A stretch of DNA of 64,000 nt, from assembly GCF_009709675.1 (NCBI RefSeq), contig NZ_WMLB01000022.1:62001-126000 (forward strand), read 5' to 3'. Of the stretch, positions 43,661 through 47,116 are shown one piece after another; positions within the stretch are counted from its first letter, which is position 1; every line of letters begins with the position of its first letter. Position numbers and translations under genes: made by a program. This stretch comes from Agromyces bracchium (GTDB lineage Bacteria > Actinomycetota > Actinomycetes > Actinomycetales > Microbacteriaceae). Below the pieces are notes generated by a model. It did not search any database and was not told the DNA's origin. It saw only the letters and a program-made list of their open reading frames with translations.

Positions 43661-44734
43661 GTGGCACTCACCATCGGAATCGTCGGACTCCCGAACGTCG
43701 GCAAGTCGACCCTCTTCAACGCCCTCACCAAGAACACGGTGCTCGCGGCGAACTACCCGTTCGCGACGATCGAGCCGAACATCGGCGTGGTGAACCTGCC
43801 CGACCCACGACTCGAGACGCTCGCCGGCATCTTCGGCTCCGAGCGCATCCTGCCCGCGGCCGTGTCGTTCGTCGACATCGCGGGCATCGTGAAGGGCGCC
43901 TCCGAGGGCGAGGGCCTCGGCAACAAGTTCCTCGCCAACATCCGCGAGGCCGACGCGATCGCGCAGGTCGTGCGCGGCTTCGAGGACTCCGACGTCGTGC
44001 ACGTCGACGGCAGGGTCGATCCGAAGAACGACATGGAGACGATCAACGCCGAGTTGATCCTCGCCGACCTCGAAACGCTCGAGCGCGCGATCACGCGCTA
44101 CGAGAAGGAGGTCAAGGGCAAGAAGCTCGACCCGTCGGTGCTCGCCGCAGCGAAGGAGGCGCAGGAGGAGCTGCAGAAGGGCACGCCGCTCTCGGCCTCG
44201 AAGGTCGACCTCGCGCCGATCGCCGAGCTCGGCCTGCTCACCGCGAAGCCGTTCATCTACGTCTTCAACGTCGACGAGGCGGTGCTGACGGATGCCGCCC
44301 GCAAGGCGGAGCTCGCCGCACTCGTCGCGCCCGCCGAGGCGGTCTTCCTCGACGCCAAGATCGAGTCGGAGCTCATCGACCTCGACCCGGCGGATGCCGC
44401 CGAGCTGCTCGCCTCGACCGGCCAGGATGAGTCGGGTCTCGACCAGCTCGCGCGCGTCGGCTTCGACACGCTGGGCCTCCAGACCTACCTCACCGCCGGC
44501 CCGAAGGAGTCGCGCGCCTGGACGATCCGCAAAGGCTGGAAGGCCCCGCAGGCGGCCGGCGTGATCCACACCGACTTCGAGAAGGGCTTCATCAAGGCCG
44601 AGGTCATCTCGTTCGCCGACCTCGTCGAGACCGGCTCGGTCGCCGAGGCCCGCGCCAAGGGCAAGGCCCGCATGGAGGGCAAGGACTACGTCATGCAGGA
44701 CGGCGACGTGGTGGAGTTCCGCTTCAACGTGTAG
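43661..44734 (+). CDS. ychF: Redox-regulated ATPase YchF (OLA1)
   Basis: 357 residues. P-loop GLPNVGKS at residues 9-16, [11 protein letters not shown] and [20 protein letters not shown] as G2/G3, NVDE in place of the G4 NKxD, which explains the preference for ATP over GTP, and a C-terminal TGS domain ([35 protein letters not shown]...[11 protein letters not shown]). It binds ribosomes and modulates stress responses. A diverged copy of its last codons occurs again at 45465-45500. Confidence 0.96.
44708..44726 (+). repeat. 19-bp direct repeat, copy 1 (inside ychF 3' end)
   Basis: GTGGTGGAGTTCCGCTTCA encodes VVEFRF at the YchF C-terminus. An identical 19-mer lies at 45474-45492 in the same orientation, 747 bp away. 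Confidence 0.95.
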
Positions 44735-44746
44735 CGCCGCTCGGAA

Positions 44747-44878
44747 ATGAGCTGGAGTCGCAGCCCGAATCGCTCAACGTGGTACGGGGAGCTCGCGGGG
44801 ACCGTCATCGTCGGTATTCTCCTGCCGGTCATGTTCATCGCGCTGATCGACCTCTGGACGACCGCAGGTGGGAGATGA
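44747..44878 (+). CDS. Small membrane protein, 43 residues
   Basis: MSWSRSPNRSTWYGELAG precedes one TM (about residues 18-37, TVIVGILLPVMFIALIDLW). ATG is preceded by a weak CGGAAA. Its TGA overlaps the ATG of the next small gene (ATGA). Codon use is less GC-biased than in the neighbours (AGT, AAT, TCA, ATT). Too short for family assignment; the coding call rests on the hydrophobic pattern and stop-start coupling. Confidence 0.5.
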   Translation: MSWSRSPNRSTWYGELAGTVIVGILLPVMFIALIDLWTTAGGR

Positions 44879-45045
44879 GCGCAGGGGTGGACCTGGGCGG
44901 GCGGTGGGGCGAGGGCACCCTTGGTTCTGCGGTCGCCTCGATCGGCTTCATCGTCGTCGCCTTCATCGTGGCCGAAGTGATGTTGATCCGATCGCTGTGG
45001 CGGCGATGGACGGTGAGGGCTCGCTGTCGGCGTCGCCGACGGTGA
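44875..45045 (+). CDS. Small membrane protein, 56 residues
   Basis: MSAGVDLGGRWGEGTLGS precedes one TM (about residues 19-38, AVASIGFIVVAFIVAEVMLI), followed by a strongly basic tail (RSLWRRWTVRARCRRRRR). It overlaps the upstream small gene by 4 nt. The two-gene pair of tiny single-TM proteins has no recognisable relatives that I can name. The basic tail could place it inside-positive with N-terminus out. Confidence 0.55.
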   Translation: MSAGVDLGGRWGEGTLGSAVASIGFIVVAFIVAEVMLIRSLWRRWTVRARCRRRRR

Positions 45046-45093
45046 TCGGCGACGTGGTCGAATTCCGTCACAGTCAGGCATCTGGGAGAAACC

Positions 45094-45462
45094 ATGGTCG
45101 ACGAGGGCGATCGGGGGAGAGCGCTGGCAGTCGCCGTGGCTGAGCGGGTCACCGCGAAGTACCCTGCGACCTCTGTCGAGATTCGCGACGGTGGAGGTTT
45201 CCACGGGACAGTCGCGACCTTCACCCCTCGAAACCCCGGCGGCGCCCCGCTGGTGTTGCTCGCCGCATATGACTGGTCCTTCGACATCCACGCTGGGCGG
45301 TTCATTCTCTTCGACACGGAGCCGATGGAGGGGAGCGAGCCCGAGCAGGTCGACCTCATCGTGGAGGCGATACTGGAAGTGGCGCGCGAAGGAGTCTCGC
45401 GGGGCTTCTTCGACCGCCTCATCTCATTCGGACGAGATCGAGTGGGGCCGTGGAGCAAGTAG
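45094..45462 (+). CDS. Hypothetical 122-residue protein of the inserted cassette
   Basis: GGGAGA 5 nt upstream supports ATG 45094. The protein is soluble and mixed alpha/beta: VAERVTAKYPATSVEIRDGGGFHGTVATFTP, then PLVLLAAYDWSFDIHAGRFILFDTEPMEGSEPEQVDLIVEAILEVAREGVSRGFF, ending WSK. No family is recognised; the pattern of an acidic D-T-E-P loop followed by an amphipathic helix resembles small immunity-type or SMI1-like folds only vaguely. It is the largest gene of the segment between the two ychF 3' copies. Confidence 0.65.
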   Translation: MVDEGDRGRALAVAVAERVTAKYPATSVEIRDGGGFHGTVATFTPRNPGGAPLVLLAAYDWSFDIHAGRFILFDTEPMEGSEPEQVDLIVEAILEVAREGVSRGFFDRLISFGRDRVGPWSK

Positions 45463-45473
45463 TGGACGGGTAT

Positions 45474-45492
45474 GTGGTGGAGTTCCGCTTCA
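45474..45492 (+). repeat. 19-bp direct repeat, copy 2 (ychF 3'-end remnant)
   Basis: Identical to 44708-44726. The surrounding frame (45465-45500) still reads DGYVVEFRFSS-stop, against [15 protein letters not shown] in ychF, so the copy is a diverged duplicate of the gene end and not only a chance 19-mer. Confidence 0.92.
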
Positions 45493-45512
45493 GTTCATAG
45501 TGCGCGGAGCAC

Positions 45513-45767
45513 TCAGACCTTCGTGACCCATCGCCAGAGCCACCAACCTACGGCGCCGATCGATACGACGACGAGGATCCAGAAGGCCGCCAGTCCGACG
45601 AAGGTCCAGACCGTCGGCTCCGGGTAGACGATCACAGGGCCGAACAGGCCGGCCCATGCCAGCAGGCCGAAGAAGAGGTATATCGCGTACGCCGTGACGA
45701 GGAAGAGCGGCAGCGCGATGAGGATCCGCGCTCCTCGAGTGCGCGGGTTCGGCGGCGGTTCCGACAT
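45513..45767 (-). CDS. Small two-TM membrane protein
   Basis: 84 residues. Proline-rich N-terminus MSEPPPNPRTRG, TM1 (about 14-35, ILIALPLFLVTAYAIYLFFGLLAW), short loop VIVYPEPTVW, TM2 (about 52-75, VGLAAFWILVVVSIGAVGWWLWRW). ATG 45767 is the first start that does not extend through a low-complexity shadow. Convergent with the ychF remnant. Function unknown. Confidence 0.65.
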   Translation of the reverse strand: MSEPPPNPRTRGARILIALPLFLVTAYAIYLFFGLLAWAGLFGPVIVYPEPTVWTFVGLAAFWILVVVSIGAVGWWLWRWVTKV

Positions 45768-45906
45768 GTGGCCCCCAGCTCGAGGACGCCTTCCAAATGT
45801 CGCCCTCCGCGCCGATCCTACTGGTCGGGCTCGCTCGCGGCCGCGAGCGATCGGTCGGAGACGACTGCGCTGCAAGTGGGTGGCCGAGCCCGACGAGCCC
45901 GACGAC

Positions 45907-46470
45907 TCACTCTGCCGGCGGCAGCCTCGGGTGGTCCGTGGGGTAGATGCCGATCGCGAATCCGTACGTGGTGTCGCCGGAACGCGGCATCCGGTCGAAG
46001 TCATCGACGAGCTCGGCCATCCGTTCCCAGAACTGCGACGCCTGCTCGTCGGTGATCCGCGCATGGCGGATGAATCCCCAGAGTCGACCCTGCTCGAAGG
46101 CGTTCGCCGATTCGCGCGCCGCTACCTCGAAGTCGTTGAAGTCGCCCGTCGCCGCGTGGTTCCCCGAGGGCTGCTCGAGCGCGATCGTGAACATCCGAGC
46201 CGTGCGCCCGTAGAACCGCTCCTCGATCGCGCGGACCTTCCGCGTGCGCACCACCCGGAGCAGGCCGTTCCTGGCCAGCACGTCGACGTGGTGCGCGACC
46301 GTGCTCTTGGGGCGGTCGACGGCGGTCGCGAGCTCGGTGACCGTGGCGGCCCGCTCGTGGAGGAGTTGCAGGATCGTGGTGCGGAGCGGATGGCCGATGG
46401 CCTGCACCTGGGCCGGCCGGGTCAGCACGATCCGATCCGCCAGCTCGTAGTCAGGGGGGTTGTCCGCCAT
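45907..46470 (-). CDS. ArsR-type winged-helix regulator
   Basis: 187 residues. QAIGHPLRTTILQLLHERAATVTELATAVDRPKSTVAHHVDVLARNGLLRVVRTRKVRAIEERFYGRTARMF is a HTH_20/ArsR DNA-binding domain; the rest is helical. No metal-binding Cys pair is seen, so it probably senses an organic ligand. Its ATG is 8 nt downstream of a TAGTCT box, so it too looks leaderless. Divergent from a dienelactone hydrolase-like gene over 67 bp, its likely target. Confidence 0.86.
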   Translation of the reverse strand: MADNPPDYELADRIVLTRPAQVQAIGHPLRTTILQLLHERAATVTELATAVDRPKSTVAHHVDVLARNGLLRVVRTRKVRAIEERFYGRTARMFTIALEQPSGNHAATGDFNDFEVAARESANAFEQGRLWGFIRHARITDEQASQFWERMAELVDDFDRMPRSGDTTYGFAIGIYPTDHPRLPPAE

Positions 46471-46515
46471 GGTCGATCAGACTAGCATCACGGAATGTTC
46501 GAGAATAGTCGATCA
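46471..46515. promoter_or_regulatory. Divergent promoter region with GTCGATCA direct repeat
   Basis: On the minus strand TAGTCT (46479-46484) is the -10 of the regulator. GTCGATCA occurs twice in the same orientation (46472-46479 and 46508-46515), 36 bp apart, flanking the core. This is a candidate regulator site shared by both genes. Confidence 0.45.
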
Positions 46516-46537
46516 ATGAGTCGGGGAGACCGCTGAC

Positions 46538-47116
46538 ATGGCCGAAGTACTGCTGTTCCACCACATCCAGGGCCTGACGGACGGGGTGCGCTCCGTCGCC
46601 GACGAGCTGCGACGGGTCGGGCATGTCGTACACACGCCCGACCTGTTCGACGGCCGCACCTTCGACAGCCTCGAGGAGGGATCCGCGTTCGTGCGAGACA
46701 CGGGCTTCGACGCCCTCTGGGAGCTCGGCAGCGCCGCGGCCGACGAACTCGGCGATGGGCTCGTCTACGCCGGGTTCTCGTTCGGCGTCATGATCGCCCA
46801 AGGGCTCGCGCAGACGCGGCCGGGCGCCCGAGGCGCCCTGCTGCTCTACTCCTGCATCCCCGTCTCCGAGTTCGGGGAGGCGTGGCCGGAGGGCGTGCCG
46901 GTGCAGATCCACGGCAAGGAGGGCGACGAGTTCTTCCTGGAGGACCTGCCTGCGGCGCGCGAGCTCGTCGCCTCGACGGCCGACGCGGAACTCTTCCTCT
47001 ACCCGGGCGACCAGCACCTCTTCGCCGACGCCTCGCTCGATGCCTACGACCCCGAGGCATCCGCTCTGCTCATGTCGCGCGTGCGGGCGTTCCTCGCCGG
47101 TCCGGCCGTGCGCTGA
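46538..47116 (+). CDS. Dienelactone hydrolase-like alpha/beta hydrolase
   Basis: 192 residues. Nucleophile elbow GFSFG near residue 80 with Ser in place of the Cys of true dienelactone hydrolase; Asp in EGDEFF and His in YPGDQHLFAD complete the triad. LLFHHIQGLTDGVRSVADELRRVGHVVHTPDLFDGRTF is the family N-terminus. A Ser nucleophile makes an esterase or a non-dienelactone substrate more likely. GGGGAG 15 nt upstream is a poor ribosome site. It is probably controlled by the divergent regulator. Confidence 0.85.
   Translation: MAEVLLFHHIQGLTDGVRSVADELRRVGHVVHTPDLFDGRTFDSLEEGSAFVRDTGFDALWELGSAAADELGDGLVYAGFSFGVMIAQGLAQTRPGARGALLLYSCIPVSEFGEAWPEGVPVQIHGKEGDEFFLEDLPAARELVASTADAELFLYPGDQHLFADASLDAYDPEASALLMSRVRAFLAGPAVR

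Follow-up and report, generated by a model that had tools for sequence, protein, structure and literature searches.

The window, meaning the whole stretch of DNA analysed here, comprises 64,000 nucleotides of Agromyces bracchium (contig NZ_WMLB01000022.1). In this stretch, ychF is followed by two small units in tandem, bounded by copies of the ychF 3′ end, and by a further segment that precedes the host flank. The encoded YchF is 91-97% identical to its orthologues in 24 same-genus genomes. The features of the region, with the basis of each in brackets, are the following:

43661..44734, plus strand: ychF, the host gene (357 aa), whose 3′ end is the proposed integration target (ORF; orthologue identity).
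44698..44734, plus strand: copy 1, the ychF 3′ end itself, with the core GTGGAGTTCCG at 44711-44721 (repeat search).
44722..45067, plus strand: cassette C, 346 bp from core to core (repeat spacing; relative of C2 in G045, within its only cassette).
44747..44878, plus strand: C1, a single-TM mini-gene of 43 aa (ORF).
44875..45045, plus strand: C2, a single-TM mini-gene of 56 aa (sequence; G045 relative).
45044..45080, plus strand: copy 2, diverged, with the core GTCGAATTCCG at 45057-45067 (left half ychF-like, right half of the HS type).
45068..45487, plus strand: cassette B, 420 bp from core to core (alignment to G347).
45094..45462, plus strand: the gene of cassette B, 122 aa (ORF).
45464..45499, plus strand: copy 3 of the ychF end (EFRFSS and a stop), the right end of cassette B, with its core at 45477-45487 (sequence, repeat and probe search).
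45500..45906, no strand: a leftover segment of 407 bp absent from the empty site (comparison with G056).
45907..46470, minus strand: a regulator gene labelled HTH by eye, the first gene of the host flank (directly after ychF in G056).

An exact 19-bp repeat, GTGGTGGAGTTCCGCTTCA, had been noticed in an earlier reading of this DNA made from its letters alone (the sequence-only reading). It is indeed present at 44708-44726 and 45474-45492, 766 bp apart from start to start and with 747 bp between the copies; a 25-nt probe allowing up to three mismatches found only two sites in the window (44708 and 45474), against 0.00 expected from 100 shuffles. The second ychF end described in that reading, DGYVVEFRFSS followed by a stop codon, was also confirmed by the sequence. 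Its proposal of a single insertion held for the duplicated ends and failed for the number of units: copy 2, 76% identical over 45044-45072 in the repeat search, lies between copies 1 and 3, so that two units were inserted in tandem rather than one. All three cores are on the plus strand. The core of copy 1 also terminates other cassettes and adjoins large serine recombinases (LSRs), while the right half of copy 2, TTCCGTCACAGTCAGGCA, corresponds to the HS type known from ychF ends elsewhere.

The gene content between the repeats is as previously described, with two coupled single-TM mini-genes, the start of C2 overlapping the stop of C1 by ATGA, and one gene of 122 residues. In both cassettes, only a few bases separate the stop codon from the next site, whose left half is ychF-like. 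Neither C1 nor the 122-aa protein matched a Pfam or PADLOC family at E ≤ 0.1. C2 is present in 2 of 60 genus genomes, its own included, and its relative in a G045 cassette directly behind ychF is 56% identical. The 122-aa protein has 10 matches among 5.8 billion proteins, the window's own counted, and its predicted model (mean pLDDT 74) gave no PDB match at E ≤ 0.001. The lower GC content claimed for this region was also confirmed, with values of 0.660 in C (44735-45066) and 0.644 in B (45067-45487) against 0.723 in the window and 0.678 in ychF; only 0.5% of the 400-bp stretches of the window have a GC content of 0.641 or less, and 1.8% of 0.657 or less.

Cassette B recurs as a unit in G347, a genome of another genus, with cores on both sides (381 of 443 aligned bases identical, 86% DNA identity). 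The local alignment covers only window positions 45048-45492, reaching 9 bp beyond the left core and 5 bp beyond the right core, with only about 200 bp of the G347 contig available to the left of the cassette. A 48% relative lies directly behind ychF in G379, and 0.4 kb past it there is a weak copy (16/20); G005 has a 42% relative of the 122-aa gene, located 3.7 kb beyond ychF and not accompanied by a copy. According to the sequence-only reading, the same cassette without a second copy would speak against insertion; cassette B is bounded on both sides in G347, and the G005 relative, which lacks a copy, counts against the insertion reading.

Other cassettes behave in the same way. Cassette A (91 aa) is common to G008 and G062, and the homology stops exactly at GTGGAGTTCCG on the right. 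Among 10 distinct tblastn loci of a HigB-like gene, 6 (two of them from Brevibacterium, protein identities 57-99%) have the gene start at precisely 57 bp from the core. G062 carries two cassettes in a row (339 and 356 bp), namely A and then an unrelated gene behind an HS-type end. This second cassette was considered as a relative of cassette B and rejected, since tblastn of the 122-aa protein was negative (E ≤ 1e-2, all loci compared) and only the HS-type left end agrees.

Empty sites in relatives, for which the earlier reading had suggested looking, are represented by G056, in which the counterpart of window positions 45907-47098 starts 18 bp past the ychF stop, with an identity of 91.4% over 1192 bp. 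The flank begins again at +660 in G045, behind one cassette with the C2 relative, at +817 in G013 and at +1007 in G046. The window is about 1155 bp longer than the empty site, of which C and B explain about 765 bp. The idea of an insertion at the ychF end is upheld by the empty site and limited by the 407 bp that separate copy 3 from the empty-site flank. On its minus strand, this segment has a reading frame (45513-45767) for a membrane protein of 84 aa; blastn against the ychF-downstream regions compared gave no match at E ≤ 1e-4, and no ychF-end copy is seen at the right border of the segment. Perhaps it is a third unit whose right copy was lost.

To describe how common such copies are, 55 genus genomes, the window included, were read in the orientation of ychF over downstream stretches of 1.6 to 18.5 kb (385,000 bases in total), and G054 was read separately; four of the 60 genus genomes (G047, G052, G069 and G070) had no pattern match and were left out of the ychF reading. 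A further ychF-end copy was found downstream in 16 of the 55 genomes, the window being counted by its HS-type copy, and in 17 of 56 with G054. The 55 genomes contain 18 same-strand copies (at least 17/20) downstream of ychF, and neither opposite-strand copies nor reversed-pattern matches were found in their 385,000 bases. Family-wide, two or more matches of a strict 24-nt pattern occur in at least 28 of 398 genomes; the matches of G139, G281 and G383 are on different contigs, and the ychF-end stretches were read for part of the 28.

Different cargo between ychF-end copies, also among the expectations of the earlier reading, was found in these 16 genomes and in G054. Across the genomes compared, cargo varies and includes a CHAT protein (G008), a GHKL ATPase (G009), an Abi_2/AbiD protein (G198) and a RhuM/Fic protein matching PADLOC PDC-S23 (G060); a HigB-like toxin with its antitoxin, PhnA-like, acetyltransferase and kinase genes were labelled by eye, and some cargo, such as a 302-aa protein of G348, has no family match.

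Several individual arrangements were observed beside these. A PhnA-like gene (by eye) begins inside the ychF stop codon (GTATGA) at L040, L050 and L128 (G018, G021 and G059), and in G021 this gene and the ychF end are duplicated 1.35 kb apart. In G017 (L091), a copy of the ychF end that has an LSR-type left arm lies 17.7 kb past the gene, and the intervening stretch contains genes labelled by eye as transposase-like and GHKL-like; an integrase was sought in that stretch and discarded, there being no Phage_integrase match and no ychF-family LSR at E ≤ 1e-5. Outside the genus, G173 (L282, 3985-4031) has two directly adjoining ychF-end cores of opposite orientation, which form a head-to-head inverted repeat.

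The scan of viral contigs for the ychF end yielded 10 stretches, four with an adjacent LSR and three (L103, L105 and L112) with a small tyrosine recombinase. An alignment of the four viral LSRs was used as a query and returned 71 LSR loci in named genomes. We examined 62 of them (L153-L214), all Actinomycetota by title, leaving out the nine weakest (L215-L223); L165 and L166 are on one contig and have identical arms. An opposite-strand ychF-end copy is located at the LSR start in 26 of the 62 loci, and ychF ends 250 bp or less before the LSR start in 12. Together, one or the other feature is present in 38 loci and absent from 24, although ychF or a copy of its end occurs at another position in some of these 24. 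Under a stricter filter, the opposite-strand copy was present in 29 of 66 cases (the 62 loci and the four viral query LSRs). These proportions do not come from a blind sample, since the query LSRs were chosen for their adjoining ychF end. Domain searches, which for the viral contigs covered L110, L103 and L112, showed that the LSRs at ychF have Resolvase and Recombinase domains; among their relatives of known structure are the TP901-1 and A118 integrases.

The ychF genes adjacent to LSRs end differently from one another. In 11 of 12, the tail after EFR is other than FNV, which Rothia aeria keeps; the tails include HS, TGLTSKK, SGSASKR, SGLASR and HGATSKK. The HS tail of copy 2 of the window is found in two of the 12 (Curtobacterium and Bifidobacterium), and in Curtobacterium sp. 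ZW137 an LSR lies within about 20 bp of the HS-type ychF end. Varied YchF C-termini (SGLTSGGKK, HGGQSGSGKK, TGLTSKK) were also noted among LSR-bearing Actinomycetota at L173-L195 and other loci.

An array was also found in Frigoribacterium sp. PhB116 (G330). It starts with an HS-ended ychF (661451), followed after 322 bp by an HS-type copy (661773). A middle part of 23.9 kb encodes a Type ISP restriction enzyme, an OLD/GajA-like protein, a resolvase and an LSR (684260-685681, minus strand), and the array ends with a copy that has an LSR-type arm (685691) and, 2.2 kb further, a copy that has a ychF-type arm (687928). Small units and a complete LSR element that carries defence genes are thus found together in one array.

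Within the genus, an LSR at E ≤ 1e-30 occurs in 16 of 60 genomes, none of them inside the ychF stretches read. The genome of the window has no ychF-family LSR at this threshold (0 of 27 scored candidates), and a profile of ychF-family LSRs found none in the window. When the cassette loci were scanned at E ≤ 1e-5, a set that does not contain the Frigoribacterium stretch, the only LSR was a partial one in G108, about 5 kb downstream of an HS-ended ychF. Integrases near the site, a further point raised by the sequence-only reading, exist at ychF in other genomes (Curtobacterium, Frigoribacterium and the 38 LSR loci) and not in that of the window, so the cassettes are non-autonomous at best.

The left halves of the sites were compared by means of a matrix built from 28 distinct LSR-adjacent arms, with the consensus ...C.T.A.GTT.TTCT...ACGTAACGTG before the core. 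When each arm was left out in turn, 23 of the 28 scored 2 or more. We collected 80 junction copies from 97 loci, counting identical 55-mers once and including weak 16/20 matches, and 31 of them score above the 99.9th percentile (1.6) of 70,000 random 30-mers. The left arm of ychF itself scores 0.8 (median of 44) and reaches a maximum of 7.9; an arm can therefore be called LSR-type only if it scores above about 8. Under this limit, the 62 stricter junction copies (at least 17/20, or of the HS type) comprise 23 with an LSR-type arm, 12 with a ychF-type arm and 27 with neither. Copy 3 of the window falls below this filter; copies 2 and 3 score -18.1 and -9.0, respectively, and over about 12 nt their left halves resemble ychF (by eye for copy 3). 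Since the left arms in the window are of the ychF type, they constitute the weak point of an LSR origin for B and C, and a tyrosine recombinase is a possible alternative to the enzyme that we infer for them.

Duplicated cores, their fixed orientation in the genus, an empty site, a core-ended cassette shared across genera, LSRs beside the core and a mixed array were all directly observed. Based on these observations, we consider it likely that the ychF 3′ end is an LSR integration hotspot across Actinomycetota and that the window holds two recombinase-less cassettes, C and B, which were probably moved by an LSR acting in trans; LSR catalysis, movement in trans and the exact crossover point are the parts of this reading that we infer. 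The earlier proposal of an insertion that regenerates the end of ychF is supported by the empty site in G056, the other cargo and the duplicated cores. The core of an incoming circle would lie between a left arm and a right arm, the latter encoding a working ychF end. Crossover would occur in or adjoining GTGGAGTTCCG, so that the element would bring new last codons and a stop and leave ychF intact, and recombination at the core would push the old ychF end outward. A new right arm resembling that of ychF would make the site reusable, and units could then stack head to tail. Small cassettes with one to a few genes and no recombinase would need an LSR from another element, a phage or the host; no such LSR was found at E ≤ 1e-30 in the genome of the window, and hence the cassettes are probably at rest now.

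Three other explanations were weighed, which exclude neither each other nor the hotspot reading, and their likelihoods should be read accordingly. The enzyme that moved the cassettes with ychF-like left arms (B, C and A) could be a tyrosine integrase, or a tyrosine recombinase of the host, working on near-identical cores, which we regard as unlikely. Viral contigs L103 and L112 encode a protein of 250-258 aa matching Phage_integrase beside a ychF end of about 40-57 bp (lengths by eye), and the Streptomyces satellite phage Mulchroom (OQ784832.1; L286, 4019) has an annotated tyrosine integrase together with a 20/20 core copy with a ychF-like arm. Tyrosine integrases thus use the ychF end, and the enzyme for B and C could belong to that class, in keeping with the ychF-like left arms of the window copies. 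However, none of the seven Phage_integrase matches in the genome is on the window's contig (C15), which also leaves no IntI-type tyrosine integrase beside the array, and the HS right half of cassette B is the type seen where an LSR directly follows ychF. Mulchroom, L103, L105 and L112 represent a second, unrelated integrase class at the ychF end. The terms attP and attB were absent from the part of the Mulchroom paper open to a term search (PMC10690885). Matches of the HS pattern in viral contigs (27 stretches) had no ychF-like left arm by eye and were taken as chance.

Comparably improbable is the explanation that the small cassettes are decayed remnants, i.e., larger LSR elements shrunk to a gene or two and never mobile as cassettes, which would be compatible with an LSR hotspot. 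The lack of such an LSR in the genome, the divergence of copies 2 and 3, the partial LSR of G108 and, according to the portion of the report available, an ECC remnant with attL and attR at rlmH (PMC6222049) are consistent with decay. Nevertheless, the same small cassette is seen between the same pair of ends in more than one genus or beside other neighbours, which is not what repeated independent decay would give. The least probable origin is homologous recombination or partial ychF duplication, such as single-crossover uptake of a ychF 3′ fragment, with no site-specific recombinase: 174 bp of ychF are repeated in G008 and 69 bp in G049, lengths that vary and are compatible with the partial duplication without insertion that the sequence-only reading had named as contrary evidence, but the same core bounds cassettes in different genera (B, A and the HigB-like type), 23 of the 62 stricter junction copies have LSR-type, non-ychF left arms, and none of the copies in the 55 genus genomes is in the opposite orientation.

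Taking the LSR hotspot as the preferred reading, we tentatively propose, at slightly less than even odds, a gene-cassette array besides those of integrons and pdif modules, in which, across Actinomycetota, one-gene cassettes with fixed ends would be gathered in tandem at the ychF end by LSRs acting in trans; the coding end of ychF would be the permanent entry site, and the last codons of ychF would be rewritten at each capture. If this is true, Actinomycetota would have an integron-like means of collecting and swapping small genes at a predictable chromosomal address, several of the collected genes being defence or toxin-antitoxin genes. Genome scans between ychF-end copies would then lead to new defence genes, many natural LSR/att pairs would become available for genome engineering, and the C-terminus of a widely conserved ATPase would be repeatedly rewritten by mobile DNA.

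Among the matches listed in the open literature, which leaves most subscription journals outside, none dealt with the 3′ end of ychF as the target of an LSR or described arrays of this kind, and the open literature likewise gave no paper on SCC with tandem or pseudo arrays or on an integron with a serine integrase. The ychF prophage of Streptococcus pneumoniae was considered as a case of the same site and set aside, since in the accessible text it lies upstream of ychF, at a different site (PMC6375853). A text search of the available part of a survey of mycobacterial prophages (PMC10654092) returned neither ychF nor EngD.

Several known systems share part of these characteristics. The Resolvase and Recombinase domains of the LSRs at ychF are those of LSR elements and prophages of the phiC31, Bxb1 and TP901-1 kind, and att-type flanking repeats and an empty site, as in LSR integrative elements, are present here, apart from the 407 bp that remain past copy 3. 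LSR elements do not usually take the form of tandem cassettes only a few hundred bp long. The pdif/Xer modules of Acinetobacter plasmids are short, site-flanked, often of toxin-antitoxin content and lack a recombinase; judged from this general description, the ychF cassettes are also short, site-flanked and recombinase-less, and nothing resembling a dif site was noticed at them. Integron cassettes contain one or a few genes with the stop by the recombination site, are arranged head to tail in modular order and are mobilised by a recombinase in trans. The ychF cassettes are similarly small, tandem and modular, with the stop near the site, whereas their array has no tyrosine integrase at the site and begins in a housekeeping gene, and its sites, compared by sequence alone, are copies of the ychF end rather than the known attC hairpins.

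LSR elements at the 3′ ends of housekeeping genes, with recombinase-less remnants, are already known from SCC and ECC: in the parts of PMC6222049 and PMC3637587 available, LSRs target the 3′ end of the conserved gene rlmH, with att repeats, variable content and remnants that lack the recombinase. LSRs at a housekeeping gene 3′ end, flanking att repeats, highly variable genes and recombinase-less units are likewise found at ychF. The differences are that the target is ychF instead of rlmH and the hosts are Actinomycetota, that the LSR beside the ychF core does not appear to be a ccrA/ccrB pair, and that the smallest ychF units measure about 320-420 bp, against 32 kb for the ECC element in the accessible text of PMC6222049. 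Our best reading is that the putative LSR hotspot at ychF has its nearest counterpart in the SCC elements at rlmH and that its form is nearest to that of integrons.
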